A DNA stretch of 51,735 nucleotides from positions 1 to 51,735 of the forward strand of contig CAJQOS010000017.1 in the NCBI GenBank assembly GCA_905479975.1. Reading direction: 5' to 3'. This document shows, piece by piece, positions 2,812-45,635 of the stretch. How positions within the stretch are numbered: the stretch's first letter is position 1; every line of letters begins with the position of its first letter. Position numbers and translations under genes: made by a program. This DNA is from an uncultured Puniceicoccaceae bacterium (GTDB lineage: Bacteria; Verrucomicrobiota; Verrucomicrobiia; Opitutales; Coraliomargaritaceae). The notes beneath the pieces are model-generated. The model made no database searches and was not told where the DNA came from. It saw only the letters and a program-made list of their open reading frames with translations.

Positions 2812-4127
2812 GATATTTGGGGGAACTCCTGGTTGATGCCGTTATGATCACGGTTGGTGATGAGTAGGGTGCTCCATGTGAGCACGAGGAAGGGGAAGCT
2901 GTCGAAGCGCAGGAAGAAGCTTTGCGCGAATGCATAGCTGAGCATGTAGCTAAAGGTGGCTGCGTAGAGAGCCGCCATGGCGCGACGGCGAGGGCTACCG
3001 CTCTCGCCACGAACGCGTCCCCAATGTGTGAACAGTGCACCGTGAAAGCAGAGGCCGACTCCGATGAGTCCGAGGATTCCTAGATCCAGCCATACGTCGA
3101 GGTGAGCATTATGACTTTGGCGCGGATTCCATGTTTGGACGAGTTCGCGGCCTTTGCCTTCGGTCCAGAAGGCGCCATAGCCTTTGCCAAATACGGGATG
3201 TTGTTTGCCTTCGTTGAATACGATGCTCCACAGTGCGTCGCGGCCGGAAAGTGACGCATCGCGCCCAGTGGTTTCGAAGGCAGTGGCTTGCACATTTTTC
3301 CAGCCGATGACTGTGCCTAACAATAGTGTGCCCACGATGAGTAGTTGAATGATGCCGCGGCGGTATGTGCTGGCACTGAGGAATGTGTAAATGCTAAGTC
3401 CTAGTGCAGTGGCGAGCCATGTGGTGACTGAGAAGGTGAGTAGTAAGCCGAATGCCAGGGCCGCTTGTGATGCGCGTAGCATGAACCATTCGCGACTGTT
3501 TTGGGCAGACATGCCGAGTGAGAGCATGAGCCCGATCGAGAGGAATGGAGCGAGTGTATTGGGGTGCACTGCGACTCCAGATAGGCCGGGGCGCGCGGGA
3601 TTCACCGAGTAGATTTTAGGCAGTGAAAAATACATCAGGAGTGAAATGCCTGCGATGACTGCCGTTGCGTAGACGATGGTTTGTAGCATCTTACGCACGG
3701 GTTGCTGGCTCGAGTGGACGATCGTGACGAGCGCAGTGAAGCAGAACACATAGAGGATGGCGCGTTTGGCTGAGAGTGCTGGCTCTGGTGACCACAGTGT
3801 CGAGAGTGCCACGAATCCAGCGAGTGCGCAGAGTGGTAGGTTCAATGCAATGACGGCACCGATGTTACGTGTCAGGAAGAGCAGGCCGATTGCTGATGCC
3901 CCTGCGCCTCCAAAGATGAGCTGGCGCACCAGTGCACTGGCATTATTATCAGATACGATGATGGGGCTGAGTGGTGAGCGGAAGTTGGTAGCAGCGTAGG
4001 TGATCCAAAGTAGCACGGTGATCGTCATTACGTGGCGTAGTGGGTGCTGGCGTAGTGTATTCGTATATCCACTACGAATGGCTTCGGGTTCGCCTGCGAT
4101 ATAGCTGTTGGAGATGGTTTTATTCAT
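2808..4127 (-). CDS. O-antigen ligase/polymerase-like membrane protein (Wzy/WaaL family)
   Basis: A 439-residue multi-helix inner-membrane protein. A large periplasmic loop contains the Wzy_C/O-antigen ligase signature, with an Arg-Gln-Ser-His-Asn-Ala-His run followed by LDVWLDLGILGLIG (about residues 335-358). The GRDALW and FGKGYGAFW segments just before it also fit this family. In a Wzx/Wzy pathway this enzyme joins flipped repeat units into long polymer on the periplasmic side. Polymerases and ligases share the fold, but the context (Wzz, Wza, flippase, initiating transferase) favours polymerase. It follows the Wzz-like gene by only 6 bases and overlaps the next gene by 4. Confidence 0.83.
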   Translation of the reverse strand: MNKTISNSYIAGEPEAIRSGYTNTLRQHPLRHVMTITVLLWITYAATNFRSPLSPIIVSDNNASALVRQLIFGGAGASAIGLLFLTRNIGAVIALNLPLCALAGFVALSTLWSPEPALSAKRAILYVFCFTALVTIVHSSQQPVRKMLQTIVYATAVIAGISLLMYFSLPKIYSVNPARPGLSGVAVHPNTLAPFLSIGLMLSLGMSAQNSREWFMLRASQAALAFGLLLTFSVTTWLATALGLSIYTFLSASTYRRGIIQLLIVGTLLLGTVIGWKNVQATAFETTGRDASLSGRDALWSIVFNEGKQHPVFGKGYGAFWTEGKGRELVQTWNPRQSHNAHLDVWLDLGILGLIGVGLCFHGALFTHWGRVRGESGSPRRRAMAALYAATFSYMLSYAFAQSFFLRFDSFPFLVLTWSTLLITNRDHNGINQEFPQIS

Positions 4128-4133
4128 CTTGGT

Positions 4134-5369
4134 TTAGTGCTTGAAGCATTTGAAGTTTGGGAGGACTTGATCAATCAAATCGTCCGTGCGAGCGGCCATG
4201 CCGTGATCCTGACGCATGCTCTGCCATTGTTGGCAGAGTAGGCAGTAGCCGATGGAGAAGATCATTGAGAGTCCCAGTGCGAGTCCCAGTTCGCGTTTCT
4301 TTGAGGGGCCGGCTGGGCGTGTCGGTGTGTTGGCTGGGCGGATAATGGCGAGGTTCCCGATCGGTTGTTCGGCGCGTAGGCGGTAGATGTCTGATTTGGT
4401 GGAGAGTGTGGATGCCATGTCGCGCTCGAAGCGCACCTTTTGCTCCAGGCTTTTATAAGCAATGCTGACTCGGCCAAAGTCCGCGGTGCCGACCGAACCG
4501 ACGACGTTCTGCTGAGAGAGGGTGCTTTGACGTTCGATGGTGGCGATGCGGGCTTTGACTGCGGTGACCTCCGGTGCGGAGTCTGTGTAGCTCAGGCGTA
4601 GTGCATCAAGGTCGGCTTCGAGTGCATCGCGTTCGGTTTGTAGCTCGCGCAGGCCGCGTAGTTGGTTGCTGGCTTGTAGGTCAGTGTTGACGAGGCCCAT
4701 GTCCGAGGTGAAGGCACTCATCTTTTCTTCGGTTTCAGTGAGTCGCTTTTCGGCAATCAGTAGCGCTTTATCTAGGTGGCCTGCTTGATGAATCAGTAAC
4801 TTGCGCTCGATCGATTTACTGGCGATTTCGCATTGCTCAAAGAGCGCATTGGCGATGTCGGCTGAGAGCTGTGGTGAGTGACTGTCGACGTGGACTGTGA
4901 TGATGCCTTCTTCGGTGGTCGTGGTGCGAATCATACGGCGCAACTGATCGATCACTTCTTCGGAGCGATCATTGTTAGAGATCGCATTGGCGCTGGAGAG
5001 CTGGTCGCTGAATCGTCGTGCGATTTCTTCCAACACGGCGCGTGAATGAATGATGGTGGTGTAGAGTGCAGGGTTTGGGGGCAGCATTAAGTTGCCCGCG
5101 CTACTACGGCTCGCGCGGTCATCGCTGGTTTCGATCGAGCTGGTGTCGATGGATGCATCCATGATTGCTTTTTCGCGGGGGAGTAGCACTGCCACGGCAC
5201 TGGCGGAGTAAACATCGGGCATACTTGCGAGGCGTAGGATGCCGGCGATGCTGCCGACGACCATGATGATGATGACGGTCCACTTGCGGTGGATGATTGC
5301 TTCGAGGATGTCCAGCAGCGGTTCCTGCCAGGCGATGCGTGGGGCTGAATTGGTATCTGTCTGAGTCAT
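4134..5369 (-). CDS. Wzz/GumC-type polysaccharide chain-length protein
   Basis: A 411-residue inner-membrane protein with the classic Wzz plan. It has a short cytoplasmic N-terminus, a first membrane helix at about residues 33-50, a long periplasmic coiled-coil-rich domain, a Pro-rich stretch (ANTPTRPAGPSKK) and a second helix near residues 370-390. Such proteins set polymer length and couple polymerisation to export. The C-terminus ends shortly after helix two, so no BY-type tyrosine kinase domain is fused and no separate kinase gene lies in the operon. It sits 14 bases after the export protein and 6 before the polymerase. Confidence 0.87.
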   Translation of the reverse strand: MTQTDTNSAPRIAWQEPLLDILEAIIHRKWTVIIIMVVGSIAGILRLASMPDVYSASAVAVLLPREKAIMDASIDTSSIETSDDRASRSSAGNLMLPPNPALYTTIIHSRAVLEEIARRFSDQLSSANAISNNDRSEEVIDQLRRMIRTTTTEEGIITVHVDSHSPQLSADIANALFEQCEIASKSIERKLLIHQAGHLDKALLIAEKRLTETEEKMSAFTSDMGLVNTDLQASNQLRGLRELQTERDALEADLDALRLSYTDSAPEVTAVKARIATIERQSTLSQQNVVGSVGTADFGRVSIAYKSLEQKVRFERDMASTLSTKSDIYRLRAEQPIGNLAIIRPANTPTRPAGPSKKRELGLALGLSMIFSIGYCLLCQQWQSMRQDHGMAARTDDLIDQVLPNFKCFKH

Positions 5370-5383
5370 CGTAGATCCTTGGT

Positions 5384-8107
5384 TTATTTGTCTAGTAGGA
5401 TGGCGGCATCGACTCCCGGTGTGTTGGGGGTAAATGGGCTGACGAGTGATACATCGAATTCTTTGTTGCCGTTGGTGGTGATGACGGCGATTTCAGCGAG
5501 TTGACGTGTGAGCATCATGATGTCGGAGAACTGTGCTCCGAGTGTGCGTTTCATTGGTTGTGTTGGGGCCAGTAGCACATCGCCGGCGTAGAGCACGGTC
5601 TTCTTTTTGATGAAGCCTCTTGATTTCTTTGAACGTTCGATTTCGCCGTTGGCACGGATGACATAGATCAGGTCTTCGTCGGCCATTTCGGTGAGGCCGC
5701 CGGCTTTCTCCAGTGCATTTTGGACGGTGATGCCATCGACGACGATGAAGGTGACGGGGCGAAAGACATCGCCTGAGACACTGACGGTTGGATGACTACG
5801 TGGGATCAATAATGTATCGCCGCTTTGCAGAGGTAGGTTGTAAGGGCTGCTCGGGAAGCTTGGTTCGTTGAAGGGAATGACGATGCGACCATTCGTGCTT
5901 TTGGTGTCGAGGCGTGCCAGCATGTCTTCGGTTTGTTCCAGCGCGATTTTAGCAGCGAGCCCTTCCTTGGATTGGCCTGTCTGCACCATGCGTTGGAGTG
6001 AGTTTTCGGCGAGGCGTCGGGTGCGTTCGACGAGATCATCGAGGCGGCTTTGTTGTAACCTGCGGGTGGACTCTCTGCTAAAGATGCTCGCACGTAGATC
6101 GGCATCTTCAAGGATGCCGCCGGCAGCTGTGATTAAGTCAGTGATTTGTGCGCCGTCAGGGAAGATGTATTCGCCGGGGAAACGAACGCGGCCGCCGACT
6201 TTGACGCGCACTTGTGCTTTTTGTAGTGAGCGGATGACGAGCTGATCGCCATTGGAGAGGACGGGGTTGAATGTGTTGTCGTAGTGATGTGCGGGGTGCA
6301 GTGCTTCTTGTAGGTTGAAGCGGTAGCGTTTGACGTCGAGCTTGAGCTCGTGCGCATCGAAGTGGCGGCGAATGAGTTCGGCTTCGTCGTAATACACTTC
6401 AGGGGTGAGGTTGCCTGCAATGGCGATGATGTCGGAGACGCGCATCGAGGCGGTGAGCTCATATTTGCCTGGGCGTTGAACGGAACCGATGATTTCGACG
6501 ACTGGCTGAGTCATTGCCGTATCGCGTGAACGAATGGTGATGAGGTCTAGTGGCATGAGTTCGAGGTCATGCTCTGTTACGCGCAGCAGTGCTTTATCCA
6601 GTTGAGCGACTAAGACGCGTTTGGACTGATGGTGGACGGTGCGGCCCGGCACTTCTTCGATCGCGCTGTGTTCACCGATTTGACGAGAGATGAATGCTTG
6701 TTTGATGTAGGCATCGACAGTGAGTCCGTCAGCACGTTCGATCAGCTCGCTGAGCGTCATGCCTGGAGTGTATTCGTAGTCGCCGGGGCGGGCGACTTCT
6801 CCTTCGATACGGACGATGGATTGGCGTTGATCATCGACTGCTTCGATCATGAGTAGTTCGCCGTTGAGCATCGGAGCGGATAAGCCGGTTTCGTTCAGTT
6901 CAATGTCGCAGCGTTTGCGACCACGACCGTCGATGGTGCGTTCGATTTGAGCGAGTGGGGTGAAGGAAAATGCAGTGAGGCCACCGGCGATTTCGAGTGC
7001 ATCACCGACGCTGAATGCGTTCTGCTTGATTTCGTAGATGCCCGGGGCTTGCACATAGCCAGCGATGCCGACGGTGCTGCCAATGGCTGGCACGTAGAGT
7101 GTGTCTTGCTCTTGAAGTTGTGGGAAATGCTTCTCGTTACCCGGATCGCGCAGATAGTCGTAGAGGTCGATCACGATTTGGGTATCGCCTTGTGAACTCG
7201 GACGCGTGAGGACGATGTTGCGCAGAGTGCCGTCTTTGTTGACGCCGCCCGCTGCACTGAGCGCGATGAGTAGATTGGATAAGGCAGGCACTTGAATGCG
7301 TCCTGGGTTAGCGACTCGGCCGACTATGTTGACTTGAATCGCACGACGATTGCCGATGCTGACGGTGAGTTCGAAGCCGTGGCGGCGTTGCTGAAGAAAG
7401 GCGAGTAGGTGCTGGTTTAGTTTGCCGTAGCTGATTCCTGCGACTTGAACTGTGCCAAATTCGGGAATGCTCAAGAGTCCATCCTGATCGACCGTGAGTT
7501 GATGGAAGGCATCCACTGTGCCACTGAGTGTGACTAGGATTTGGTCGCCTGCGCCAATGATGTAGCTAGCGGGCGTCGGGCCAGTGGAGAAGGCATCGGC
7601 AGCGTCCGGTTCGAAGACGTCGTAGCCGAATTGTTCGAGCTCACGACTGGCTTCGCGTGCAAAGTCACCGCTGTAGAGTTCTTCTAAGCGTGAGCGACTG
7701 TCGGCGGTGGCGATGCTTTCTGGGAGTTGCTCCTCACCGTCGTTGTTGATGTTGACGGTGATGGAGGATGTGTTGGGCGCGCTGTTGCTGGATCCTCTGT
7801 TGTTGCGGAGTCGATCGTTGGTGCGGCGAGTCGCTGAGGTGCTGTTTCTGCCGGCATTTTCGACCGGCTTGAGCAAATTCTTGGGAGTGCCCCAAGGCCA
7901 TGCGTCTTGTGAAAGTGTTGGTGCTACATCGGACTGAATCGTTTTGTGCGAACTTGATTCAGTGTAGTGTGGGACTTGTTGAACCTCTTCGCGTAGACGA
8001 TAGGCCCAGTCGTAGGAGGAGGGTTCGGTTGCCTCTAGGGCGGAGCAAATCAATAAGCTGATGAGAGCGATTGTCTTGCGGCTGAATTTGAAGTGGAGCG
8101 TCTTCAT
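5384..8107 (-). CDS. Wza-like polysaccharide export protein with many SLBB domains
   Basis: A 907-residue secreted protein, far longer than E. coli Wza (about 380). A signal peptide spans residues 1-26 (hydrophobic core ALISLLICSALEA) without an obvious lipobox. After a low-complexity Asn/Ser/Arg region, the poly-export domain starts near residue 185 (YIIGAGDQILVTLSG). About five or six SLBB-type repeats follow, each beginning like GYVQAPGIYE, GEVARPGDYEY, GSVQRPGKYEL, GGRVRFPGEYIF or GDVFRPVTFIV. A predicted helical segment (about residues 660-720) interrupts the series. It should form the outer-membrane/periplasmic exit channel. The many SLBB domains suggest a tall periplasmic tube. It is 24 bases downstream of the fused glycosyltransferase gene. 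Confidence 0.88.
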   Translation of the reverse strand: MKTLHFKFSRKTIALISLLICSALEATEPSSYDWAYRLREEVQQVPHYTESSSHKTIQSDVAPTLSQDAWPWGTPKNLLKPVENAGRNSTSATRRTNDRLRNNRGSSNSAPNTSSITVNINNDGEEQLPESIATADSRSRLEELYSGDFAREASRELEQFGYDVFEPDAADAFSTGPTPASYIIGAGDQILVTLSGTVDAFHQLTVDQDGLLSIPEFGTVQVAGISYGKLNQHLLAFLQQRRHGFELTVSIGNRRAIQVNIVGRVANPGRIQVPALSNLLIALSAAGGVNKDGTLRNIVLTRPSSQGDTQIVIDLYDYLRDPGNEKHFPQLQEQDTLYVPAIGSTVGIAGYVQAPGIYEIKQNAFSVGDALEIAGGLTAFSFTPLAQIERTIDGRGRKRCDIELNETGLSAPMLNGELLMIEAVDDQRQSIVRIEGEVARPGDYEYTPGMTLSELIERADGLTVDAYIKQAFISRQIGEHSAIEEVPGRTVHHQSKRVLVAQLDKALLRVTEHDLELMPLDLITIRSRDTAMTQPVVEIIGSVQRPGKYELTASMRVSDIIAIAGNLTPEVYYDEAELIRRHFDAHELKLDVKRYRFNLQEALHPAHHYDNTFNPVLSNGDQLVIRSLQKAQVRVKVGGRVRFPGEYIFPDGAQITDLITAAGGILEDADLRASIFSRESTRRLQQSRLDDLVERTRRLAENSLQRMVQTGQSKEGLAAKIALEQTEDMLARLDTKSTNGRIVIPFNEPSFPSSPYNLPLQSGDTLLIPRSHPTVSVSGDVFRPVTFIVVDGITVQNALEKAGGLTEMADEDLIYVIRANGEIERSKKSRGFIKKKTVLYAGDVLLAPTQPMKRTLGAQFSDIMMLTRQLAEIAVITTNGNKEFDVSLVSPFTPNTPGVDAAILLDK

Positions 8108-8131: not shown

Positions 8132-11059
8132 TCAGTGAGCACTCGCGGTGATGGCCTGTTGGAAACTGTTGGCCATACTTTGCGGTGTGTAGGAGCGGAT
8201 TGCAGATTGTGCGGCACGACCGACGCGAGGTAGGTCTTCATGTTGTAGCACTAACTGCAGTTTTTGTGGGGCTTCTTGACTGGCAGCGAAATTGATTTGA
8301 AAGCCGGTTTCGCCATCACGAATCAGATCATCGAAGCAACCCGCATGCTCGGAGCAGAGCGTTGGGGTGCCACAGATACTGGCTTCGTTGACTACCAGGC
8401 CCCAAACGTCGCCGCAGGTAGGGAAGATGTGTAAGTCGGAGGCCGCATACCAATAAGGCATGCTCGTGGTAGGCACGTTGCCGGCGAGTTCGATGAAACG
8501 TGAGTCCTGTTGCTGGATGAGTGTATCCAGAGGGCCACTACCGACGAAGACCAATTTCCATTGTTCTTTGATTGCCTGAGGCAGGGCGTTCCATTGTTCG
8601 AGGATATGTTCAATGCCTTTGAGCGGAACCAAGCGACCCACGATCAGTGCCAATTTTTGCTGTGGGACGTAGACTTCGCGGATGGCCTCGATGTGGCGCT
8701 CTGCTTTGTCTTGGTTGAGTGTCTGTAGGAATTTTCTTTGGTCAGATGCATTGGGTGCATCGATGATTTTTTCAGCCGGCACGCCCCACGCGAGTAAGAC
8801 TTCGCGTGCTTGAGTGCCCATGCCGACGACACTAGAGGCTTGGATGAGTAAGGCCTTGCGCCATGTTTTGCGTAGCCAAGATTGAGTGGCGCTGACGCGA
8901 GATTGATAGCACCAGATGACGAACTCTGTGCCGGTGCATTTGCAGTAGAGGGCGGCAAGCGCGCTGCGGAGGCCGAGTTCTAGGCTGATGACGACTTCCG
9001 GCTTGAAACGCTTCAATTGATAGGGAAGGCCATAGGGCATGTGCTTGGTGAGTGTTTGTTCGAAAGGGATCGGTCCAGGTGTGACTTCTTTTTGCTTCCA
9101 GCTGTAGCAGTGAGTCTGCTCCAGCGGTAGGTCGCTGAGTTCGACTTTCCAGTTGCGGTCGAACTCTGATTGAGCATCGGCGAAGACACGTAGATCAATG
9201 CCTGGAGTTTCAGCGAGTGCTTGAAAGACGGGCTTGCGGTAAGGGCTTACGATGTTGGTTAGAAAGGCGACTCGTTTGGTACCCGACTGAGTGTTGCCTT
9301 GGTAAGCGATGTGACGCGTCGTGCTCGAAGGGATGAGCGTGGCGTGTAGGCCGCCGAGCATCAGTGGCAATTTAAGTAGACCGCGGATGCAGGCAGCTGG
9401 CTGACCTTTGAGCAGTGCGGGTGTGCTGCGTAGGCAGAGTAGTCCGGTTGCCGCGAGGCGCTTACATGCCCGTGCGAGTGGATGGTTGACTGGTGCCGTC
9501 TGGCGCAGGTTACGTTCGTAGATGAGTCCGTTGCGATAAGCACGTTTCCATAACCAGCTGAGTGTGGCACGACTGGCCGGCACGTATTCTTCGACCACTG
9601 CTTCGCGGCAGCTGATGAAGTTGGCGCCTTGAGCGGAGATGCGGGCGAAGAGATCGCTGTCGGATCCACCGCTACGGCCGAGCTTGCTGTCGAAACGATA
9701 GTTCATGTGGTTGAACCATTTGCCACGCACGAGCGTGTTGCTGGTGCGTGTTTCTTGCCAATTGATGGAAGTGCCAGTGGCAGCGACTGACTTTTCGAAG
9801 AAGCGGCCCTGTTCTTGCCAACCACCACTCAACTCTCCGAGCTTTGCCAGCACCGGGCCGAAGACGGCATCGGCCTGATGATTGTTGGCGCAGCGGATGA
9901 GTTCGATCAACCAGGTGCTGCTCACGGTTTCGTCGTCATCAACAAATAGGTAGGCATCGGCAGGTCCCATATCGATGGCACTGTTGCGTGCGTGGGCGAT
10001 GTTCTGGCGTGATTCGACGGCGTAATGAATCGCAGCAAAATGGCTTGCTGTTTGGCGAAAGTCATCGACGACGGCCCGTGCGGATCCGGTGGCATCATTA
10101 TCGATGATGCGTAGTTCGACCTGAATGCCGTCGGGACGTTGGCAGGCGTTGATGCTTTTCAGTAAATCACAGAGCAGGACGGGGCGTTGATAAGAGGCGA
10201 TGCAGATGGCGATGCGTTTGCCGTGGTTGAGTGATTCGCTGGTTTGCTGTGCATCATTAGTGCGTAGCGATCTGAACTGACGTTTCTGGTATTTAGCCTG
10301 TAAGAGTTGCTTGGCTGCTTTGAATAGAAAGACTGGGTTGGTGGTGAGGTAGCGGCGCAGTAAGCGCTTTGGTTCGCGGCTGAGACGGAAGGCCCATTCG
10401 AGGCCTAATTTCTGTAGGCGTTCGGGTGCTTGCTCGACTGCGTTGGCGTGAAAGTCAAATGCAGCGCCGACACCGATCATGACACCTGGAATACGATGTG
10501 CGTGTGCATTCATCCAGATTTCTTGCTTGGGGCAACCGATGCCGACCCAAGTGATCTGAGGTTTCGCAGCTATGAGCTCGGCAGTGTAAGCGTCGTCTTC
10601 GCTTGCAGTGAGCGGACGGAAAGGGGGTGTGATGGTGGCGACGATTTCGATGTGTGGATACTGTTCACGCACCATTTTGAGAAGTGTTGTCATGCGATTT
10701 GGATGGCCGCCGTAAAAGGCGACGCGTAGCTTTTCACGCGATGCTTGTTCAAGTGTGTGTAGCATGAGCGTGGGTCCATATACGCGACTGGCATCTGTGT
10801 GACCGAGGCGGCGTTGCATCCAAACCAGTGGCATGCCATCGGCGGTGTTCATGTCGGACTCGTCGAGGGCGCGGCGTAGGGAGAGGTCCCAGTGGGCGGT
10901 CGTCGTCGAGTGCACGTTGCAGACACAGACGTAGCGGTGTTCGTTGGCTTTGGCCCAGTCGATGATCCGAGCAGGGGCGCTATCGTAGTTGACGTTGGAC
11001 AGAGCAGTGCCTGTGACTTCGGTTGAACTATTGGCGGAATGTGGAGTGCGGTAGATCAT
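8132..11059 (-). CDS. Three-domain fused glycosyltransferase (WecG/TagA + GT2 + GT4)
   Basis: A single 975-residue frame carries three glycosyltransferase modules. Residues ~20-255 are a WecG/TagA/CpsF (GT26) domain, with NTADGMPLVW, a GxGxPKQE motif (WVGIGCPKQEIWMNAH) and GVGAAFDFHA. Residues ~285-550 are a GT2 (GT-A) domain starting RIAICIASYQRP, with an acidic metal-binding motif FVDDDE. Residues ~600-975 are a GT4 domain with VGRLVPLKGIEHILEQW, VFVGSGPLD and a C-terminal E-x7-E-like region (GLVVNEASICGTPTL). These are usually separate proteins. The fusion could channel a lipid-linked intermediate through three consecutive sugar additions. No stop or frameshift is visible between modules, so it looks like a real fusion. 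It follows the initiating transferase by 13 bases. Confidence 0.88.
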   Translation of the reverse strand: MIYRTPHSANSSTEVTGTALSNVNYDSAPARIIDWAKANEHRYVCVCNVHSTTTAHWDLSLRRALDESDMNTADGMPLVWMQRRLGHTDASRVYGPTLMLHTLEQASREKLRVAFYGGHPNRMTTLLKMVREQYPHIEIVATITPPFRPLTASEDDAYTAELIAAKPQITWVGIGCPKQEIWMNAHAHRIPGVMIGVGAAFDFHANAVEQAPERLQKLGLEWAFRLSREPKRLLRRYLTTNPVFLFKAAKQLLQAKYQKRQFRSLRTNDAQQTSESLNHGKRIAICIASYQRPVLLCDLLKSINACQRPDGIQVELRIIDNDATGSARAVVDDFRQTASHFAAIHYAVESRQNIAHARNSAIDMGPADAYLFVDDDETVSSTWLIELIRCANNHQADAVFGPVLAKLGELSGGWQEQGRFFEKSVAATGTSINWQETRTSNTLVRGKWFNHMNYRFDSKLGRSGGSDSDLFARISAQGANFISCREAVVEEYVPASRATLSWLWKRAYRNGLIYERNLRQTAPVNHPLARACKRLAATGLLCLRSTPALLKGQPAACIRGLLKLPLMLGGLHATLIPSSTTRHIAYQGNTQSGTKRVAFLTNIVSPYRKPVFQALAETPGIDLRVFADAQSEFDRNWKVELSDLPLEQTHCYSWKQKEVTPGPIPFEQTLTKHMPYGLPYQLKRFKPEVVISLELGLRSALAALYCKCTGTEFVIWCYQSRVSATQSWLRKTWRKALLIQASSVVGMGTQAREVLLAWGVPAEKIIDAPNASDQRKFLQTLNQDKAERHIEAIREVYVPQQKLALIVGRLVPLKGIEHILEQWNALPQAIKEQWKLVFVGSGPLDTLIQQQDSRFIELAGNVPTTSMPYWYAASDLHIFPTCGDVWGLVVNEASICGTPTLCSEHAGCFDDLIRDGETGFQINFAASQEAPQKLQLVLQHEDLPRVGRAAQSAIRSYTPQSMANSFQQAITASAH

Positions 11060-11072
11060 AGTTAGAGGGGGC

Positions 11073-11744
11073 TTAGTGGTTGAGGAGCTTTTTGATGACG
11101 TAGCAGCTGGTCATGCTGACCATGAGCAGGTCGTAGCTGATTGATTGGTTGCGGATGTAGTGGAGTTCACCCTCAAAGCGTAGTTTCCAGTCGTGTAGCA
11201 TTTCCTCGCCCAGTGCGTTATCATCGATGCAGATCTGACCGATACTGGTGAGGCCGGGCATGGTGGAGTAGCGTGACTCAAAGCCATACAGCTTGGCGCA
11301 GAGTTCTTCGTCCAGTGCCAGTGGGATGGGGCGAGGACCAACAATAGTCATGTCGCCGCGCAAAATATTGAGCAGCTGTGGGGCTTCATCGATTTTAAGC
11401 TTACGTAGAATGCGTCCGAGTGAAGTGACTTGAGGGCTGGAAAGTTGAGTGCCCAGGGCCGTGGCCTTTTCGGAGCCGACACGCATGGTGCGGATTTTAT
11501 AGATCTCGAAGCGTTTACCTTGATAACCACGGCGACTTTGCTTGAAGAAGAACGGGCCACGGTCATTACATTTGTGGGCGACCCAGATGCAGGCGAACAT
11601 TGGGAGCATGGCTAAGAGTGCGATGCCAGCAGCGAGACGCATGCCGCTTTGCCATAGCCGGTAGCGGCGTGTGGATGTTTCTGAAACGACGGTATCGAGA
11701 CGCTCCAGTGGGTAGCCGAGTTGGAATCCTGTATTGTAGTTCAT
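11073..11744 (-). CDS. Initiating undecaprenyl-phosphate sugar-phosphate transferase
   Basis: A 223-residue monotopic phosphoglycosyl transferase of the bacterial sugar transferase family (WbaP/WcaJ C-terminal type). One hydrophobic segment (about residues 32-54) precedes the catalytic core, which has GPFFFKQSRRGYQGKRFEIY, KIRTM and a GPRPIPL motif near residue 136. It would load the first sugar-1-phosphate onto undecaprenyl phosphate, which starts repeat-unit assembly. It lacks the extra N-terminal helices of full-length WbaP. It is the second gene of the operon, 20 bases after the receiver protein and 13 before the fused glycosyltransferase. Confidence 0.93.
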   Translation of the reverse strand: MNYNTGFQLGYPLERLDTVVSETSTRRYRLWQSGMRLAAGIALLAMLPMFACIWVAHKCNDRGPFFFKQSRRGYQGKRFEIYKIRTMRVGSEKATALGTQLSSPQVTSLGRILRKLKIDEAPQLLNILRGDMTIVGPRPIPLALDEELCAKLYGFESRYSTMPGLTSIGQICIDDNALGEEMLHDWKLRFEGELHYIRNQSISYDLLMVSMTSCYVIKKLLNH

Positions 11745-11764: not shown

Positions 11765-12277
11765 TTACAGGCTGTTTTTGCTCAAGCGGCTATTCCACTC
11801 GTGGAGTAGTTCGCGTAGTGAAAGCACGACGCCGCTGAAGGGGTTGCGTGTGTGGCCTGCGCGTAACCGCTGCAGCACGGATAAATAATTCTCAATGACC
11901 TCAAACACGGCATCGCAGTCGTGTGGCTGGTTCTTGTCATACACCGCGTTGCAGCCGCCGTTCATCAGTGCGAGCAAGGTTGGCTGCTCGAGTGTCGATG
12001 ACATGGCGACGACGAGTGCATTGGGGTTTAGCTCCCGTATTTCGCGCAGCAGTTGGGTGGCCATGCGTTGGCCATTAAAGTCGTTGTCGACGAAATAGAC
12101 ATCCAACGTGGGAGTGACGACCGGTTCGTCGTAGACTGTGACCGAACATGGAGAGAATTTCTGTAGCAGGCGTGCACGCATGCAACCAGCTGCGATTGGA
12201 TCGTCATCGATGATTCCGATGCGTGCGGTGTGGTCTTTGGAGCTGACCTGAGTTGGAGCGTTTTTTTGGAGTCGCAT
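11765..12277 (-). CDS. Stand-alone response-regulator receiver protein, first gene of the exopolysaccharide operon
   Basis: A 170-residue protein with a receiver (REC) domain and no recognisable output domain. Acidic-pocket residues are Asp24-Asp25(-Asp26). The likely phospho-acceptor is Asp64 (in VYFVDNDF), the Ser/Thr switch is around 93-95 (AMSST) and the conserved Lys is 115 (YDKNQP). About 45 C-terminal residues extend beyond REC without a known fold. The start cannot lie further downstream, because the next Met is inside the domain. No Shine-Dalgarno is visible, and the predicted sigma-54 start is about 2 bases upstream, so the message may be leaderless. It could be a phosphate sink, an anti-activator or a post-translational switch for polymer synthesis, fed by the divergent kinase. 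Those roles are inferred. Confidence 0.85.
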   Translation of the reverse strand: MRLQKNAPTQVSSKDHTARIGIIDDDPIAAGCMRARLLQKFSPCSVTVYDEPVVTPTLDVYFVDNDFNGQRMATQLLREIRELNPNALVVAMSSTLEQPTLLALMNGGCNAVYDKNQPHDCDAVFEVIENYLSVLQRLRAGHTRNPFSGVVLSLRELLHEWNSRLSKNSL

Positions 12278-12290
12278 GCAAGATACATAA

Positions 12291-12305
12291 ACAATCCCCG
12301 TGCCA
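12291..12305 (-). promoter_or_regulatory. Predicted sigma-54 (-24/-12) promoter of the exopolysaccharide operon
   Basis: Read on the minus strand the site is TGGCACG-GGGA-TTGTT, against the sigma-54 consensus TGGCACG-N4-TTGCW. The GG doublet and the -13 G are separated by the required 10 bases, and only the -12 C is changed (to T). The predicted start is near 12279, directly in front of the receiver gene. A sigma-54-type activator is encoded in the divergent operon, and two palindromes lie 120-170 bp upstream of this promoter, so position and partners agree. The promoter itself is predicted from sequence only. Confidence 0.72.
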
Positions 12306-12315
12306 ATTCTTTCGG

Positions 12316-12347
12316 TGGTATCTTAACCGCATGGTATTGAGTGGTAT
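12316..12347 (+). repeat. Three TGGTAT direct repeats in the divergent control region
   Basis: TGGTAT occurs at 12316-12321, 12332-12337 and 12342-12347, between the predicted sigma-54 promoter and the palindromes. The spacings are 16 and 10 bases. They could be binding sites for another factor, such as an IHF-like DNA bender needed for loop formation, or they could be chance. Confidence 0.25.
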
Positions 12348-12392
12348 CTGCATCTATTTTATGTGGATGCTCCTTTCAGTGATCGAAGGGCC

Positions 12393-12407
12393 CTGTAATA
12401 ATTACAG
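12393..12407. promoter_or_regulatory. Perfect 15-bp palindrome, candidate activator (enhancer) site 1
   Basis: CTGTAATAATTACAG is a perfect inverted repeat (7+1+7). Its centre at 12400 is about 121 bp upstream of the predicted sigma-54 transcription start and about 74 bp upstream of the H-NOX start codon. It shares the CTGTA-N5-TACAG plan with site 2, whose centre is 51 bp away. Spacing and upstream location are typical of paired NtrC-family dimer sites. Assignment to the adjacent regulator is inference. Confidence 0.6.
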
Positions 12408-12443
12408 TCATCGGTGCGGCACTTTAGTGGTTTGATTTGCTTT

Positions 12444-12458
12444 CTGTAAAAACTACAG
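12444..12458. promoter_or_regulatory. 15-bp inverted repeat, candidate activator (enhancer) site 2
   Basis: CTGTAAAAACTACAG repeats the CTGTA-N5-TACAG arrangement of site 1. It lies about 172 bp upstream of the predicted sigma-54 start. It ends only 15 bases before the H-NOX start codon and probably overlaps that promoter or leader, so the same regulator could also control its own operon. Confidence 0.55.
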
Positions 12459-12473
12459 TAAAACTATGTGCCT

Positions 12474-13019
12474 ATGAAGGGATTAGTATTTACAGAATTT
12501 CTCGAGATGGTGGAAACGAAGTTTGGCTATGAGGTGCTGGACCGCTTGACGTCTTTACCATCACTTAAAAGTCACGGTGCCTATACCTCGGTAGGGAACT
12601 ATCCACATGGTGAGATGCTTAAGATGTTGGATGAGCTGCATGGTGCAGTGGGGCTGCCACAACGAGAGTTGATTCTGGCGTTTGCTGAATGGTTGTTCGG
12701 CACCTTTCTTAAGGTGCATCCAGAGTTTTTTGAGCGGATTGATAATTCCTTCGATTTCTTAAATGGAATTGAGACGATGATACACAGTGAAGTGCGTCGA
12801 CTGTATCCGGACGCACGCTTGCCGGATTTCGAGTGTGAGCGTCGTAGTGAGACTGAGTTAGTCATGGATTATTCGTCGTGGCGGCCGTTTGCCGATTTGG
12901 CAGAGGGCTTGATTCGTGCTTCCAGTCAGTATTTCAACGAGGAGGTTGAGGTGATTCGTGAGGATGGTCCCTCGGCAGACGGGCGTAGTGCCCGCTTCAC
13001 ATTGAAGAAATTGAACTAA
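12474..13019 (+). CDS. hnoX: H-NOX haem-based nitric oxide sensor
   Basis: A 181-residue soluble haem protein of the H-NOX (HNOB) family, near the usual length for stand-alone bacterial members. The start MKGLVFTEFLEM is characteristic, so the ATG at 12474 is preferred over a GTG two codons upstream. His104 (in ETMIHSEV) matches the proximal haem ligand, and Tyr133-x-Ser135-x-Arg137 is the haem-propionate motif. Aligned by eye with Caldanaerobacter (Tt) H-NOX, the distal Tyr that stabilises O2 is Leu142 here, which predicts selectivity for NO over O2. It starts an operon with a hybrid kinase 10 bases downstream. In known systems NO-bound H-NOX modulates the partner kinase. No strong Shine-Dalgarno is visible. 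Confidence 0.95.
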   Translation: MKGLVFTEFLEMVETKFGYEVLDRLTSLPSLKSHGAYTSVGNYPHGEMLKMLDELHGAVGLPQRELILAFAEWLFGTFLKVHPEFFERIDNSFDFLNGIETMIHSEVRRLYPDARLPDFECERRSETELVMDYSSWRPFADLAEGLIRASSQYFNEEVEVIREDGPSADGRSARFTLKKLN

Positions 13020-13029
13020 GTTTATACTG

Positions 13030-16000
13030 ATGTCGGATTCGAAGGAACTAAGCCCCGAAGTTTTTGAGCGGCTACTGGCACGTGAGCGTCGTTCGCGTCA
13101 GGAAGCCGAGCGTTTACTCGATCAGAAGTCCGTTGAACTCTACGATACCAATCAACGACTGCTTGCTTTAGCGGATAATTTGGAACAACGAGTGCAGCGT
13201 CGCACCGCGGAGTTGGAAACTGAGCGCAATGGTGCTGTCGATGTGGCTGAAGCCTTGCGGGAGAGTGAACGTCGCTTCAGTGATGTGGCTAGTATTGTGG
13301 GTGAGTATTTGTGGGAGATTGATGCCGATTACTGTTTTACATCTGTCACGAGTCATGTGGCCGCTGTCTTGGGGTATAGTGAAGCTGATTTGATCGGCCG
13401 TTCTATCTTCGATTATATGCCGCCCGAGGACGCCTCGCAGATGAAAATAGCGTTTCAGGAAGCGTCGAGTGCCAGCCAAGTTTTTACTAATTTGGCACAT
13501 CGTTCGCATTCTAAATTAGGAGAGGTGATTTGGCAGCGTAGTAGTGGTGCGCCTAGTTTCGATGCTGCGGGGGATGTGGTGGGCTTTCGTGGGGCGAGTT
13601 TGGATGTTTCGGAGGAGGAGCGTTCGAAGGAGCAGATGCAGCAGTTGGTAATTGCACTGCAACATGCGAGTGAGGGCATTGCTATGACGGATTCGCAGGG
13701 GCGCATTGTTTTTGCCAACAATGCCTGTGCCTCAATGTTTGGTTATGACAGTTGCGATGCTTTGATTGGATTAGGCTGGCAGACTTTTTACGGAGATGCT
13801 GAGGCCTTGCGTATTGAAATTGCGATTTCGAGTCAATTGGCGGTGGGAGAAGCTTATAGTGGCGAGGGTGTGGGGCGCCGGCATGATGGCAGCGAGTTTT
13901 CCGGGCATTTTTCGATTAATCGCTTGCCCAGTAGTGAGCTTCTTTGGGTTTGCCGGGATGAATCTGAACGCTTGAGCACTTTGATGAGTTTGCAGACTCA
14001 GAATTCGTTGCTGAGTGCATTGTTGGAAAATATTCGGGTGGGTGTTTTGTTTGAAGACGCTTCGGGAGGGCAGGATATTTTATACAATAATACTATTCTG
14101 GGTATGTTAGGTTTGAAGCGTGACGTATTTACTGGTTTGCGTGTCGCGACTCCTATCTTTGAGCAATTACATTCGCGTTGTCGTGACGAAGCATCTGAAG
14201 TCGCGATGAATCTGCTGATTGAAATCGATGAGAAATGCGAAAATATTCAACTAAGTATTGATGATGATACTTACCTGGTGGTGGATCGTATCCCGGTCAA
14301 TGTCGGTAGCACCTATCATGGTGCACTATGGGCGATTCGTGATGTAAGCGCAGGAAAGCGACAAGAGCTTGCGATGCAAGACGCGCGTCAGCGTGCTGAG
14401 GCTGGGGATCATGCGAAGTCTACCTTTCTCGCGAATATGAGTCATGAAATCCGCACACCTCTCAATGGTATCTGCGGAATGGCACGTCTTCTAAAGAGTG
14501 AGGCGCTGGATCCCAATGCTGCTGAACAGGTTCGAAGCATTCAGATTAGTGCTGATTCTTTATTACATGTGCTGAATGATATTCTCGATTTTTCGAAAGT
14601 AGAGGCAGGACAATTGGATATCGAAATTGTGAATTTCGACATCGCACATGTGCTAGATTCTGTATTTGCGGTTCTGCAATCCAACGCAACGGAGCAGCAG
14701 TTACGCTTTGATGTGATATATCCAGAGGCAAGTATTCCTTTGCTGCAAGGCGATCCGAGTCGGTTGAATGAGGTGCTCTTAAATTTGCTGGGAAATGCCA
14801 TTAAATTTACTTCAGAGGGAGGCGTGACCTTAACCTGTGAGGTCAGAGCCCAGTCTATTGATTCTGTTACGTTGAGGATGACTATTCGTGATACCGGTAT
14901 TGGTATGAGTGCGGTCGATGTGGAGCATGTGTTTGAGCCATTTACGCAGGCGGACACTTCGATTAGTCGACGCTTTGGTGGGAGTGGCCTTGGGTTGTCG
15001 ATTAGTCGTGATTTAGTTCGACTGATGGGAGGCGCGCTGAATGCGGAGTCTGAGTTGGGCCGAGGCAGTGCGTTTTCTTTTGAACTACCATTCACGATCA
15101 GTGGCAACTCTGCGGTCGTTGAACCGCTTCCGGACGCTTCGGGGATTAGTGTGTTTGTGCTCACCCGATCCGAAATCTTTTACCGTATGGTGAAATCTAT
15201 GTTGGGGTATGCTGATGCGCAAGTGGTTCGAGTGGAGAGTGCCGAGCAAGTAGAATACTACCTCGACGAACAATTCCCCAGTGATGCGGTAATGCTATTG
15301 GATCGTTCCTCACAGTCTAGCTATAGGCCGAATGAAGATCGAGATTTGTTACATGAATTCTCAAGTCGGTTACACCGTATTCTGATCTCAGAAGTTATTT
15401 CAGCGGATTCCGTGAGCCAGGCGCAGGTGATCGAGTATCCGTTTTCTAGATACAACTTATTACGGACGATCTATTCGAGCCTCGGACTTGGCCTGCCAGA
15501 TCAGCTCTTTCAATCGTATAACAGTGTGTCTTTCGGTTCCGTTGATTTGAGTGGGCTACGTGTCCTGATCGCAGAGGATAATACCATTAATCAAAAAGTG
15601 ACACGTATGATGATCGAGCGCTATGGCGGTGCTGCAGATATCGCTGCGAATGGCATCGAGGTATTGGAGTTAGTCGAACGTTTTGAGTATGACCTGATTT
15701 TGATGGATATCCGCATGCCTGAGATGGATGGAGTCGAGGCCTGTTTACGGCTACGCTCGTTGGGGCTGACGTTACCTGTCTATGCGTTGACCGCGGATGC
15801 GATGAAGGGCGATCGAGAACGTTTCTTGCAGGCAGGGATGAATGGTTACCTGAGTAAACCAATGGTGGAGTCTGACCTGGTCCGTGTATTAATGGATAAT
15901 TACAGGTCGCATGCCGGCGACGGAGAAGAGGTTGCGAATGGGAAAGCCCGGCCTGAGGTGTCACCTGCCGATGAATTGTTTGGGAAAGCACCCAGCGAAG

Positions 16001-16344
16001 CGCTTTTAGATGTTGAGGGGTTTTATCGATTACTTGGCGGTGAGCAGTTGATCGCGCACGAGCTGTTGAGTCAATTTGTCGACTATGCTCGTGGGTATGC
16101 GCAGGAAGGTGTGGAGGCTTTGCGGGCAGATGACTTAGAGACCGCACGTAGCCGGTTTCATAAGTTGGCGGGGTCTGCCGCCACCATTTGTGCGCATCAA
16201 GTGCGGGCTTATTTCTTGTCTTTTGAGCGTAGCTTAATGGAGGATCCGCCTGACGTTGCGACTTGCCTCGTTCGCACGAAAGTAGGCTTAGACGCGTTTG
16301 AGCAGTTGGCTCTGGAGATTCAAACAATTGTGGAGGAAAAGTAA
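13030..16344 (+). CDS. H-NOX-associated hybrid sensor histidine kinase with REC and HPt domains
   Basis: A 1104-residue protein with no clear membrane segment, so probably cytosolic. A charged coiled coil (about residues 12-85) leads into two clear PAS domains (~85-315) and a third PAS-like region (~325-440). HisKA follows with His472 in the MSHEIRTPLNG motif. The HATPase has N-box NLLGNAIKF, DTGIGM and GGSGLGLSIS. A degenerate receiver-like segment (~700-820) lacks a convincing acceptor Asp. A full receiver has Asp893 in ILMDIRMPEMDG, and an HPt domain has His1044 in FHKLAGSA. This is a complete His-Asp-His internal relay. The H-NOX stop is 10 bases upstream and the sigma-54 regulator start is 3 bases downstream, so the partners are likely cotranslated. 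Sensing through H-NOX is inferred from adjacency and known systems. Confidence 0.93.
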   Translation: MSDSKELSPEVFERLLARERRSRQEAERLLDQKSVELYDTNQRLLALADNLEQRVQRRTAELETERNGAVDVAEALRESERRFSDVASIVGEYLWEIDADYCFTSVTSHVAAVLGYSEADLIGRSIFDYMPPEDASQMKIAFQEASSASQVFTNLAHRSHSKLGEVIWQRSSGAPSFDAAGDVVGFRGASLDVSEEERSKEQMQQLVIALQHASEGIAMTDSQGRIVFANNACASMFGYDSCDALIGLGWQTFYGDAEALRIEIAISSQLAVGEAYSGEGVGRRHDGSEFSGHFSINRLPSSELLWVCRDESERLSTLMSLQTQNSLLSALLENIRVGVLFEDASGGQDILYNNTILGMLGLKRDVFTGLRVATPIFEQLHSRCRDEASEVAMNLLIEIDEKCENIQLSIDDDTYLVVDRIPVNVGSTYHGALWAIRDVSAGKRQELAMQDARQRAEAGDHAKSTFLANMSHEIRTPLNGICGMARLLKSEALDPNAAEQVRSIQISADSLLHVLNDILDFSKVEAGQLDIEIVNFDIAHVLDSVFAVLQSNATEQQLRFDVIYPEASIPLLQGDPSRLNEVLLNLLGNAIKFTSEGGVTLTCEVRAQSIDSVTLRMTIRDTGIGMSAVDVEHVFEPFTQADTSISRRFGGSGLGLSISRDLVRLMGGALNAESELGRGSAFSFELPFTISGNSAVVEPLPDASGISVFVLTRSEIFYRMVKSMLGYADAQVVRVESAEQVEYYLDEQFPSDAVMLLDRSSQSSYRPNEDRDLLHEFSSRLHRILISEVISADSVSQAQVIEYPFSRYNLLRTIYSSLGLGLPDQLFQSYNSVSFGSVDLSGLRVLIAEDNTINQKVTRMMIERYGGAADIAANGIEVLELVERFEYDLILMDIRMPEMDGVEACLRLRSLGLTLPVYALTADAMKGDRERFLQAGMNGYLSKPMVESDLVRVLMDNYRSHAGDGEEVANGKARPEVSPADELFGKAPSEALLDVEGFYRLLGGEQLIAHELLSQFVDYARGYAQEGVEALRADDLETARSRFHKLAGSAATICAHQVRAYFLSFERSLMEDPPDVATCLVRTKVGLDAFEQLALEIQTIVEEK

Positions 16345-16347
16345 TAT

Positions 16348-17724
16348 ATGAGTGCTTCAGTTAAAGCTCGCCGCCTATTGGTGGCCGATGATGATCCGAT
16401 CACTCGGCAGGTGATCAAACATGGCTTTGATTCTGTGGGGTTGACGGCGGATTATTTTGAAAATGGAGATGATCTGTTGGCAGGCTTTCATGATTCGGTT
16501 GAAGCCTGTTTGTTGGACATTCAGATGCCTGGGACGAATGGCTTGGATTGTTTGAAGCGTATTAAAAAAGACTTTCCACAGGTCGAAGTGATCATCCTCA
16601 CTAGCTTGAATCAGGCGACCGAAGCATTGGAGGCAGTGCGCCTGGGCGCCTTTGATTATATTACGAAACCCTTTGATCTGAAGGAACTGACTAATCGTGT
16701 GTCGAATGCAATGGCCTATAGTCGCAGCCAGCGTGAACGCGATGTGCTTAAAAATTCCTTATCCGAGCCGCAGTTGAAATCACCGGCACTCGGTGAGTCG
16801 CCAGCGATGCAGCAAGTGCAGGCGTTAGTGCAGCGGATTGCGCCCACTGCGAATGCCGTGCTGCTTACCGGAGAGAGCGGCACAGGGAAAACTCTGCTGG
16901 CACGCTCGATTCATACTGCCAGCCCACGAGCCGAGGCGCCCTTCATTAGTGTCAGTTGCCCCTCCTTGCCCGGAGAGCTACTTGAGTCCGAGATGTTCGG
17001 CCATGAAAAAGGCGCCTTTACCGGGGCTACCGCACGACGAGTCGGTCGTGTGCAACTGGCGGAAGGTGGCACCTTGTTTCTCGATGAAATCGATGAGCTC
17101 TCTCTGGCATTGCAGACGAAGCTGCTGACTTTCTTGCAGGACAAGACTTACTTTCGCATCGGTGGTGAGAAGGCTCAGATCAGTGATGTGCGGATAATTG
17201 CCGCGACGAACCAACACCTCGAACAACGTGTGCGGGAGGGACTCTTTCGTGAGGATTTATTCTATCGTCTCAATGTGTTGCCGATTGAAATGCCGAGCCT
17301 GACTGCACGGGTGGAAGATATTCCGATGTTAGTGAATCATTTTGTGCATCGTTTTGTTGCCGAGAATCAGCAGTCGGTGCCTACCATTGCTCATGAGTAT
17401 TTAATACTGCTGCAGCAGATGCCTTGGCCCGGCAATGTGCGTGAGCTGGAAAACGCAGTCATCCGGTCAATGACCTTACGGGCAGAGCCTCAGTGCCTGT
17501 CTGCCGATGATTTGATGGGTATGTCTGCGCCGGTGCCCTCGGTTGCAGCAGCATCGCTGGGCGGACTGACCTTGGCCGAGGTCGAGCGGCGTGCCATCGT
17601 CGAAACCTTGCTGCTCTGTGGGCAACGTAAGGCCGAAGCTGCACGCGTGTTGGGGATCGCCGAAAAAAGCATTTATAATAAAATGCGACGCCATGGTCTA
17701 ATCGTAGACGATCCCGTGGTCTAA
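16348..17724 (+). CDS. NtrC-family sigma-54-dependent response regulator
   Basis: A 458-residue regulator of standard architecture. The receiver domain (~8-120) has acidic DDD residues near 11-13 and phospho-acceptor Asp57 in CLLDIQMPG. The AAA+ domain (~150-380) has Walker A GESGTGKT at 175-182, the sigma-54-contacting GAFTGA loop at 222-227 and Walker B LFLDEIDEL. A Fis-type helix-turn-helix is near the C-terminus (AEAARVLGIAEKSIYNKMRR). It should activate sigma-54 promoters when phosphorylated by the upstream kinase through its HPt domain. The only good -24/-12 site recognised here faces the divergent exopolysaccharide operon. No rpoN gene is in the window. Confidence 0.95.
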   Translation: MSASVKARRLLVADDDPITRQVIKHGFDSVGLTADYFENGDDLLAGFHDSVEACLLDIQMPGTNGLDCLKRIKKDFPQVEVIILTSLNQATEALEAVRLGAFDYITKPFDLKELTNRVSNAMAYSRSQRERDVLKNSLSEPQLKSPALGESPAMQQVQALVQRIAPTANAVLLTGESGTGKTLLARSIHTASPRAEAPFISVSCPSLPGELLESEMFGHEKGAFTGATARRVGRVQLAEGGTLFLDEIDELSLALQTKLLTFLQDKTYFRIGGEKAQISDVRIIAATNQHLEQRVREGLFREDLFYRLNVLPIEMPSLTARVEDIPMLVNHFVHRFVAENQQSVPTIAHEYLILLQQMPWPGNVRELENAVIRSMTLRAEPQCLSADDLMGMSAPVPSVAAASLGGLTLAEVERRAIVETLLLCGQRKAEAARVLGIAEKSIYNKMRRHGLIVDDPVV

Positions 17725-35278: not shown

Positions 35279-35610
35279 GAGTTGATGTTGGTCAAACTTT
35301 GGACAGAACGGTTCCAGTGGCAAGACGTAGATTTTGGGAATTGTTAATAGTCGCAGTCGGGATGGCGGCTCAGGACGCTTCGCTCGAACACTCAAGGTCC
35401 AAGTTAGAACGCTCATCCTTGTGCGTTGAACGTTGAACGTTTCATGTTGAGCGTTCATTCCATCAGGCACATCTCCTCGGAAATATCGCTGATTTGCCCA
35501 AACGCCGGCAATGCAACGAATGCCCCGCAAGTTTTCATCGGCGCTGGCCGCTACGGCGGAGTGCCAGTTAAGAGTTGCCAGATCGTGGGGATGCACCGTT
35601 TTCTCAGTCC
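35279..35610. other. 332-base intergenic region with AACGTTGA repeats
   Basis: No gene is supported here. Around 35426-35458 it contains several overlapping copies of GTTGAACGTT-type words. The region lies between the divergent starts of the membrane protein (minus) and the methyltransferase (plus), so both promoters should be in it, but no good -35/-10 pair was identified. Confidence 0.6.
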
Positions 35611-45576: not shown

Positions 45577-45635
45577 GGGGGCGAATCGTCTCAAATGCCC
45601 GCGACAGGTCAAGGCTGATAGGCTCTGATTTGTAT

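Follow-up and report, generated by a model that had tools for sequence, protein, structure and literature searches.

H-NOX proteins bind nitric oxide (NO) as a family, and some of them bind O2. In Shewanella oneidensis the H-NOX protein adjoins the kinase HnoK, and the outputs of the pair are cyclic di-GMP (c-di-GMP) enzymes; SypG of Vibrio fischeri and LuxO of Vibrio harveyi, which belong to two other H-NOX relays, are sigma-54 activators. The subject here is a locus in which the genes of an H-NOX protein, a hybrid kinase and an NtrC-type activator (the trio) stand divergent from an exopolysaccharide (EPS) operon, on a stretch of 51,735 nucleotides (the window; contig CAJQOS010000017.1, assembly GCA_905479975.1) from an uncultured Puniceicoccaceae bacterium of the Verrucomicrobiota, the draft genome of which comprises 2.85 Mb and is 94.9% complete. 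The locus is probably a compact NO on/off control of slime production without c-di-GMP, because the DNA control sites that would link its parts recur in distant relatives, and the probability that polysaccharide synthesis is here switched by a gas through a single locus, bypassing c-di-GMP, is put at about 0.7. It resembles S. oneidensis in having an H-NOX with an adjacent kinase, but differs from its c-di-GMP outputs in that GGDEF was not found here.

According to passages of PMC9500659, H-NOX biofilm pathways are mostly described with c-di-GMP enzymes at their end, more rarely with quorum sensing or phosphorelays, and the sole verrucomicrobial mention in these passages concerns hydroxylamine oxidation. 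In V. fischeri, as described in passages of PMC12369376, the circuit HnoX-HahK-SypF/LuxU-SypG-syp has an NO-sensing H-NOX encoded in one operon with its kinase and a relay to the transcriptional regulator of a polysaccharide locus, and SypE acts as a second, post-transcriptional response regulator. All circuit parts of this type are recognisable by sequence in the window, that is, H-NOX, hybrid kinase, HPt domain, activator and polysaccharide promoter; as in the described part of the V. fischeri system, H-NOX and kinase share an operon, the predicted relay leads to a direct regulator of polysaccharide genes, and a second receiver stands beside it. However, the V. fischeri hub is shared with other kinases and with quorum sensing, whereas the window holds one self-contained locus, in another phylum and with GGDEF undetected, the likeness being one of parts. 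V. harveyi, with its H-NOX/HqsK/LuxU/LuxO chain (passages of PMC3759921), is similar in that an H-NOX feeds a relay, which there ends in LuxO, but the described output is quorum sensing to light, flagella and biofilm, with no neighbouring polysaccharide promoter; the window regulator reaches 308.9 bits against the LuxO model, the cut-off of which is 800.

The promoter layout resembles that of the PrsK/PrsR/PEP-CTERM system of Proteobacteria, where, in the passages of PMC1569441, an NtrC-type activator usually lies near EPS genes and the DNA carries a 17-nt motif that ends in TTTACA and is repeated in some cases, followed after 32-92 nt by a sigma-54 site. The same passages give the PEP-CTERM upstream motif as found in Proteobacteria only, and for Aquincola, passages of PMC9850573 report that a PEP-CTERM gene which has TGGCAC at -24 depends on RpoN. 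Besides the layout, one composite in a relative (L102, below) also stands ahead of a PEP-CTERM protein. On the other hand, PrsK as described is transmembrane, whereas the window kinase is soluble, hybrid, H-NOX-linked and not of the PrsK kind, and C(-12) is mostly missing at the H-NOX-linked promoters. None of seven regulators passes the PrsR model TIGR02915 (cut-off 502.6; window 359.4 bits, six relatives 368-428), and the window activator falls below the curated cut-offs of the NtrC, AtoC, PrsR and LuxO models alike.

The first-pass annotation of the window, which was made from the sequence alone, had known of no such wiring in Verrucomicrobiota. Nor did a literature search, outside which most subscription journals lay, return a title or opening of an abstract on such an H-NOX/NtrC/polysaccharide locus in the phylum; as to the wiring itself, the logic is already known from V. 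fischeri and partly from V. harveyi. What is new is the self-contained locus, the phylum, the undetected c-di-GMP synthases and the receiver that heads the operon, which in one relative is fused to a glycosyltransferase.

The sensor operon, the EPS operon and the control region between them

The window H-NOX matches the HNOB profile of Pfam with 129 bits (E=1.5e-37, cut-off 25.5), has the proximal heme His and the YxSxR motif (as YSSWR), and its closest solved structure is 6ocv, the 'Heme NO binding domain protein' (E=7.3e-40). The kinase has no obvious membrane span, since its highest 19-residue hydropathy is only 1.53, and the phospho-His, the REC Asp and the HPt His are all kept in seven of seven aligned kinases, the window kinase included. 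The activator possesses receiver Asp57, Walker A, GAFTGA and a Fis-type HTH, that is, all the marks of the NtrC type. These three genes are separated by gaps of 10 and 3 bases only, and the divergent EPS operon consists of eight open reading frames (ORFs) on the minus strand, from 12277 down to 179 (Table 1). The ORF map, the Pfam domains and the gaps agree with the two operons proposed in the first-pass annotation, namely an H-NOX, a kinase with HisKA, receiver and HPt domains and an NtrC-type activator in one, and eight exopolysaccharide genes divergent from it in the other; the gene that heads the latter, REC1, was left unmentioned there.

The gap between the operons is 190 bp long and holds a -24/-12-like site together with two TGTAA-N3-TTACA-like palindromes. 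A near-consensus -24/-12 promoter had been proposed, and an element was indeed found directly before REC1 and is conserved, with the reservation that its -12 base is T instead of C; the paired palindromes, placed earlier at 120-170 bp upstream, were located 116-181 bp upstream of the EPS start. Counted by hand, the predicted +1 of the EPS operon is at about 12279, so that the EPS message would be almost leaderless, because this position lies two bases before the ATG. RpoN is encoded in the same genome.

The exact sequence TGTAAN3TTACA occurs once in the 2.85-Mb genome, namely in this gap. With at most one mismatch it occurs at 34 places (two in this gap) against 64 for the reversed control, that is to say, the palindrome is not enriched genome-wide, and a regulon drawn from the palindrome alone was rejected. 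The promoter string TTGGCACGN4TTG has three exact occurrences, and 86 with at most one mismatch compared with 54 for the control. The exact composite of palindrome and promoter is found twice, in this gap and inside a kinase gene (C91), and the second was judged to be a chance match; the reversed control likewise gives two. A loose sigma-54 weight scan, with too many weak matches, was not usable alone.

From these parts the following course of events is proposed. H-NOX would bind NO and change the autophosphorylation of the soluble hybrid kinase, in which the phosphate would pass from His to Asp to the HPt His and then to Asp57 of the activator; the phosphorylated activator would bind the paired palindromes and drive RpoN polymerase at the -24/-12 element of the EPS operon. 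The second palindrome, which is beside hnoX, may when bound tune the sensor operon itself, that is, serve autoregulation. As to the sign, it is somewhat favoured, by analogy with HnoX/HahK of V. fischeri, that NO inhibits the kinase, and because inhibition is the most likely effect, NO would turn the polymer off. The wiring is well supported; NO as the ligand, the phosphotransfer, the DNA binding and the sign are what we infer.

Recurrence of the trio and its composite promoter

H-NOX was surveyed in the order (372 genomes), in a phylum sample (387) and in a class sample (384), which overlap, and was present in 23, 20 and 36 genomes, respectively. Fifty-six H-NOX places were examined; besides the window itself, the order contributed 23, the phylum sample 13 and the class sample 19 (L numbers denote loci and G numbers genomes). 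Outside these places lie the Bacteroidota and Shewanella loci L004-L006, which were mapped but uncounted, and four partial or secondary H-NOX matches (G817, G901 and two in G934; one is within L137). At 12 of the 56 places the fetched stretch includes a full-length NtrC relative with 40% identity or more, namely the window, L045, L049, L050, L099, L100, L101, L125, L131, L133, L136 and L139, and polysaccharide genes flank ten of the twelve (L050 via its second contig, L076); among the remaining 44 places, 15 have at least two matches to the polysaccharide query set. These flank counts describe rather than test the association, because the query set was drawn from the same loci and was unequal in size, L030-L053 having been compared with 12 window proteins only and later loci with more.

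In L049, which belongs to another family (genome G071), the same divergent arrangement is found at a protein identity of 41-60% (kinase 36%). Its gap keeps AAAGAATTGGCACG-N-GGA-N-TGTTTA, has TTGGCACGAGGAATGT as the -24/-12 element, and also carries two TGTAA-N3-TTACA palindromes 52 bp apart (the second at 9749) versus 51 in the window; the triple glycosyltransferase fusion of the window corresponds there to two separate ORFs. In L045, where the R of YxSxR is replaced by K, the polysaccharide operon lies downstream in the same direction, with the receiver first, and is preceded by TGTAAAGTTTACTG and TTGGCATTCTTGATGC. Family f29 has the gene order NtrC-HNOX-HK, and the same composite stands at the GT2 gene of a different operon type, which contains GT2, GT4, HlyD and an outer-membrane efflux protein (OEP). 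In addition, the HPt that is fused to the kinase in the window is a stand-alone gene near the trio in this family (recognised by Pfam in L099 and L131, from the sequence in L100 and through similarity in L133), which is how a real His-Asp-His-Asp relay to a neighbouring regulator would be expected to look.

The composite was defined as NGTAAN3TTACN, with at most two mismatches, 97-107 bp ahead of TGG[CT]A[CT]N6TG. Eight of the 11 tested polysaccharide promoter regions match it, with two operon types, SLBB-type export (window, L045, L049) and GT2/OEP (L099, L100, L101, L133, L136), and the spacing from palindrome to -24/-12 element in these eight is 99-104 bp; about 0.007 composites would be expected by chance in 11 regions of 470 bases (Markov). 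Over 59 loci (2,185,258 strand-bases), 15 composites stand against a Markov expectation of 3.0 (9 per 6,555,774). In nine sites, the eight and L131, the bases T(-26), G(-25), G(-24), A(-22), T(-14) and G(-13) are invariant.

Of the other seven composites, three are out of sample and stand at telling positions. One, near 8336 (-) in L133, lies 16 bases into the longest frame of a DUF6923/DUF4114 protein divergent from NtrC; another, near 3214 (-) in L136, lies 140 bases upstream of the gene of a protein that combines DUF4114 with an ice-binding-like adhesive domain; the third, near 6697 (-) in L102, lies 78 bases before a PEP-CTERM protein of DUF1194/VWA type. These surface-protein genes are probable further regulon members. 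The last four composites (L045 at 5260, L047, L097, L103) are roughly as many as chance alone would give.

Conservation within the genus, proposed earlier as a check on synteny, is mixed. Six of the 12 genus members searched have H-NOX; the full arrangement is found in the window and, over two contigs, in G279, as well as in G071 outside the genus, whereas G090, the sixth H-NOX member, has a different arrangement, and G195, G231 and G271 have no NtrC orthologue. The kinases of these last three keep the HPt His, and no EPS genes were found in their fetched stretches. NtrC paralogues of the genus at 33-45% identity were rejected as orthologues, because the L050 regulator reaches 69%. When two mismatches were allowed, TGTAA-N3-TTACA was not found upstream of hnoX in L048, and only once, as a weak match with two mismatches, in each of L052 and L053; these three loci have no NtrC orthologue, and by eye, TGTAA and TTTACA half-sites lie further apart upstream of hnoX in all three.

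Several observations weigh against sigma-54 control of polysaccharide genes by the trio. The composite was defined on loci that were afterwards counted, and the eight of 11 is not a clean test, because the rule was written with those eight in view; the promoter regions of L050, L131 and L134 do not match it, L131 carrying both elements 133 bp apart, and in L131 and L133 the -24/-12 site lies 1-17 bases within the target gene as called by its longest frame. Classical sigma-54 promoters hardly ever deviate from GC at -12, but only two of the nine sites have C(-12), compared with nine of nine for GG(-24) and for G(-13); either RpoN in this group tolerates this, or the promoters are so built that they are weak when the activator is missing. 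GAFTGA reads GAFSGA in the L049 and L045 activators. The joint clade of trio regulators in the NtrC tree is supported at just 66/71, the tree having taken in seven of ten trio regulators, with L100, L101, L136 and the L037 paralogue left out by a motif filter. At L125 and L139, H-NOX has an NtrC relative nearby, and no polysaccharide gene was found; H-NOX and kinase also occur in G195, G231 and G271 (drafts, 77-88% complete), in none of which an NtrC orthologue was found genome-wide (best 39-40%). Finally, the same-genus draft L050 has the trio and REC1, and no -24/-12 site was found in it; a draft error or decay of the locus may account for this, because the frame of the kinase is split and that of the regulator reaches ambiguous residues ahead of the HTH.

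REC1 and the competing readings

REC1, which has no Pfam match, keeps D24, D25, D26, D64, S93 and K115 identical in its L049 orthologue. Its AlphaFold2 model, built from two sequences (pLDDT 76), lacks helix alpha2; a fold search with the model gives receiver structures among the best matches, for example 2qxy (TMt 0.75), and response regulator 2qxy is also matched by sequence profile (E=6.8e-5). As modelled, REC1 is a receiver, with the alternating alpha/beta fold, the acidic residues, the Asp and the Lys. Strong matches occur in three of the 372 order genomes (G000, G071 and G279), all of which carry the trio, the profile having been built from two of these three, G000 and G071; in G279 the gene is split in two, and the pieces terminate two contigs, one of which carries the trio. 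In the family search, two of 43 genomes have REC1. Weak matches in G338 (E 7.6e-7) and G252 (9.6e-6) were left out of the count; they lie within frames of 519-538 codons.

In L134 (5239-6653, -), a GT2 protein with a C-terminal receiver domain adjoins H-NOX and a hybrid kinase, and neither NtrC nor the composite element was found in that stretch. Gating of polymer synthesis by receiver phosphorylation is plausible, if unproven, because REC1 tracks the trio, the L134 fusion exists and V. fischeri has SypE. That REC1 takes a second phosphate branch and acts post-translationally on the synthesis machinery is conceivable, although we would not count on it. More speculative, and still less probable, is a two-level NO control with no second messenger, in which HPt would serve both the sigma-54 activator and a dedicated receiver gating glycosyltransferases (REC1, the L134 fusion), as a swappable H-NOX controller across Verrucomicrobiota with a constant promoter code and changing operon type. 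If the kinase mainly phosphorylated REC1, polymer control would be post-translational and the sigma-54 step secondary or a relic. The receiver residues kept in REC1, the NtrC-less L134 fusion and the precedent of SypE speak for this, but the regulator has retained GAFTGA and Asp57 and the promoter architecture recurs across families, which makes such an order distinctly unlikely.

Two further accounts were weighed against the proposed one. It might be that the regulator serves its own operon or another target, the EPS genes being read from, for example, a sigma-70 start and the neighbourhood being coincidental. One palindrome does adjoin the hnoX start, and L050 has trio and REC1 without a sigma-54 site; a single sigma-70-like site is also present (-, 12150-12600), though it does not exceed shuffles (mean 0.8) and was set aside as the EPS start. 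Coincidence would leave unexplained why the -24/-12 element right before REC1 is conserved while the proteins have diverged to 36-60% identity, and why the same composite precedes a different polysaccharide operon type beside the trio in other families, so it is considered very unlikely. A different matter is the signal, since with the same wiring H-NOX could report oxygen, CO or redox, and the polymer would follow oxygen or heme-iron status. Some family members do bind O2; in the window, however, Leu occupies what we take to be the place of the O2-stabilising Tyr140 of Thermoanaerobacter H-NOX (five residues counted from the R of YxSxR, not aligned), and the best solved match, 6ocv, is named for NO binding. 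This alternative is unlikely.

Sigma-54 control by the neighbouring regulator is thus supported by the conserved sites. Of the direct sigma-54 activation claimed in the first-pass annotation, the promoter side is borne out, with promoter and palindromes conserved with the trio across families and RpoN present, and the NO signal is the inferred side. The further claim that no c-di-GMP enzyme lies in the path agrees with the genome, in which the GGDEF domain gave no match (eight of 14 control genomes were positive; EAL and HD-GYP were not searched).

Other genes, other neighbourhoods and significance

The features of the locus are collected in Table 1. The last ORF of the EPS operon has no NCBIfam or Pfam match, and its product is probably a flippase, assigned by position and look only.

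Table 1. Genes and control elements of the H-NOX/EPS locus in the window.
Feature	Position	Strand	Basis or remark
hnoX, H-NOX heme gas sensor	12474..13019 (ATG 12474; alternative GTG start 12468)	+	Pfam HNOB
Soluble hybrid kinase, PAS-PAS-HisKA-HATPase_c-REC-Hpt	13030..16344	+	Pfam
NtrC-type sigma-54 activator: REC, Sigma54_activat (AAA+), HTH_8 (Fis-type)	16348..17724	+	Pfam
-24/-12 (sigma-54) promoter-like element TTGGCACGGGGATTGT	12291..12306 (read 12306-12291)	-	directly before REC1
Promoter-proximal palindrome CTGTAATAATTACAG, probable activator site	12393..12407	.	101 bp start-to-start from -24 element
Second palindrome CTGTAAAAACTACAG	12444..12458	.	adjoins hnoX start; 51 bp from first palindrome
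REC1, atypical single-domain receiver, first gene of EPS operon	11765..12277	-	conserved residues, predicted fold
Undecaprenyl-phosphate sugar transferase	11073..11744	-	Pfam Bac_transf E=2.8e-44
WecG/TagA - GT2 - GT4 triple glycosyltransferase fusion	8132..11059	-	Pfam
Polysaccharide export protein, Poly_export + SLBB repeats	5384..8107	-	Pfam
Wzz chain-length determinant	4134..5369	-	Pfam Wzz E=1.5e-6
Wzy/O-antigen-ligase-type polymerase	2808..4127	-	Pfam Wzy_C E=8.7e-18
GT4 glycosyltransferase	1510..2811	-	Pfam
Membrane protein, candidate flippase	179..1483	-	ORF; position and look

Elsewhere in the window are a HipA-like kinase gene (29061-30362; HipA_C, Couple_hipA) and a multiheme cytochrome c with HEAT and TPR repeats (43435-45675); the ORFs at 26887-29040 (718 aa), 31886-33475 (530 aa) and 33590-35596 (669 aa) have no Pfam match at E 0.001. 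The window DNA gave no match in a plasmid collection, and its Rfam scan a single one, a tRNA at the window edge.

Other H-NOX neighbourhoods were also seen. In L047 (7856-19642; similar in L034, L038, L039, L040, L041 and L046, with Pfam run on L047 only), H-NOX lies within glycan genes in the order sugar transferase, hexapeptide protein, H-NOX, kinase, receiver, SpoIIE-type phosphatase, receiver, phosphodiesterase-family protein, DHH/CBS protein and GT4, which suggests a second, partner-switching-like output. L093 (10204-13992 and 17333-18031) has an H-NOX-adjacent kinase with HNOBA and HPt, then GT4, a sugar transferase and a STAS-receiver protein, and in L037 (1171-3114), the second H-NOX locus of G271, H-NOX is beside an NtrC-like protein without a recognisable GAFTGA loop.

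With sensor, relay, activator and target promoter in one place and no GGDEF domain found, a direct route from NO to polymer becomes separately testable. The receiver-glycosyltransferase fusion of L134 suggests that phosphorylation can gate polymer synthesis, and from the conserved distance between palindrome and promoter, regulons can be predicted in a phylum that has been little studied, with surface proteins next to polysaccharide operons among their members.

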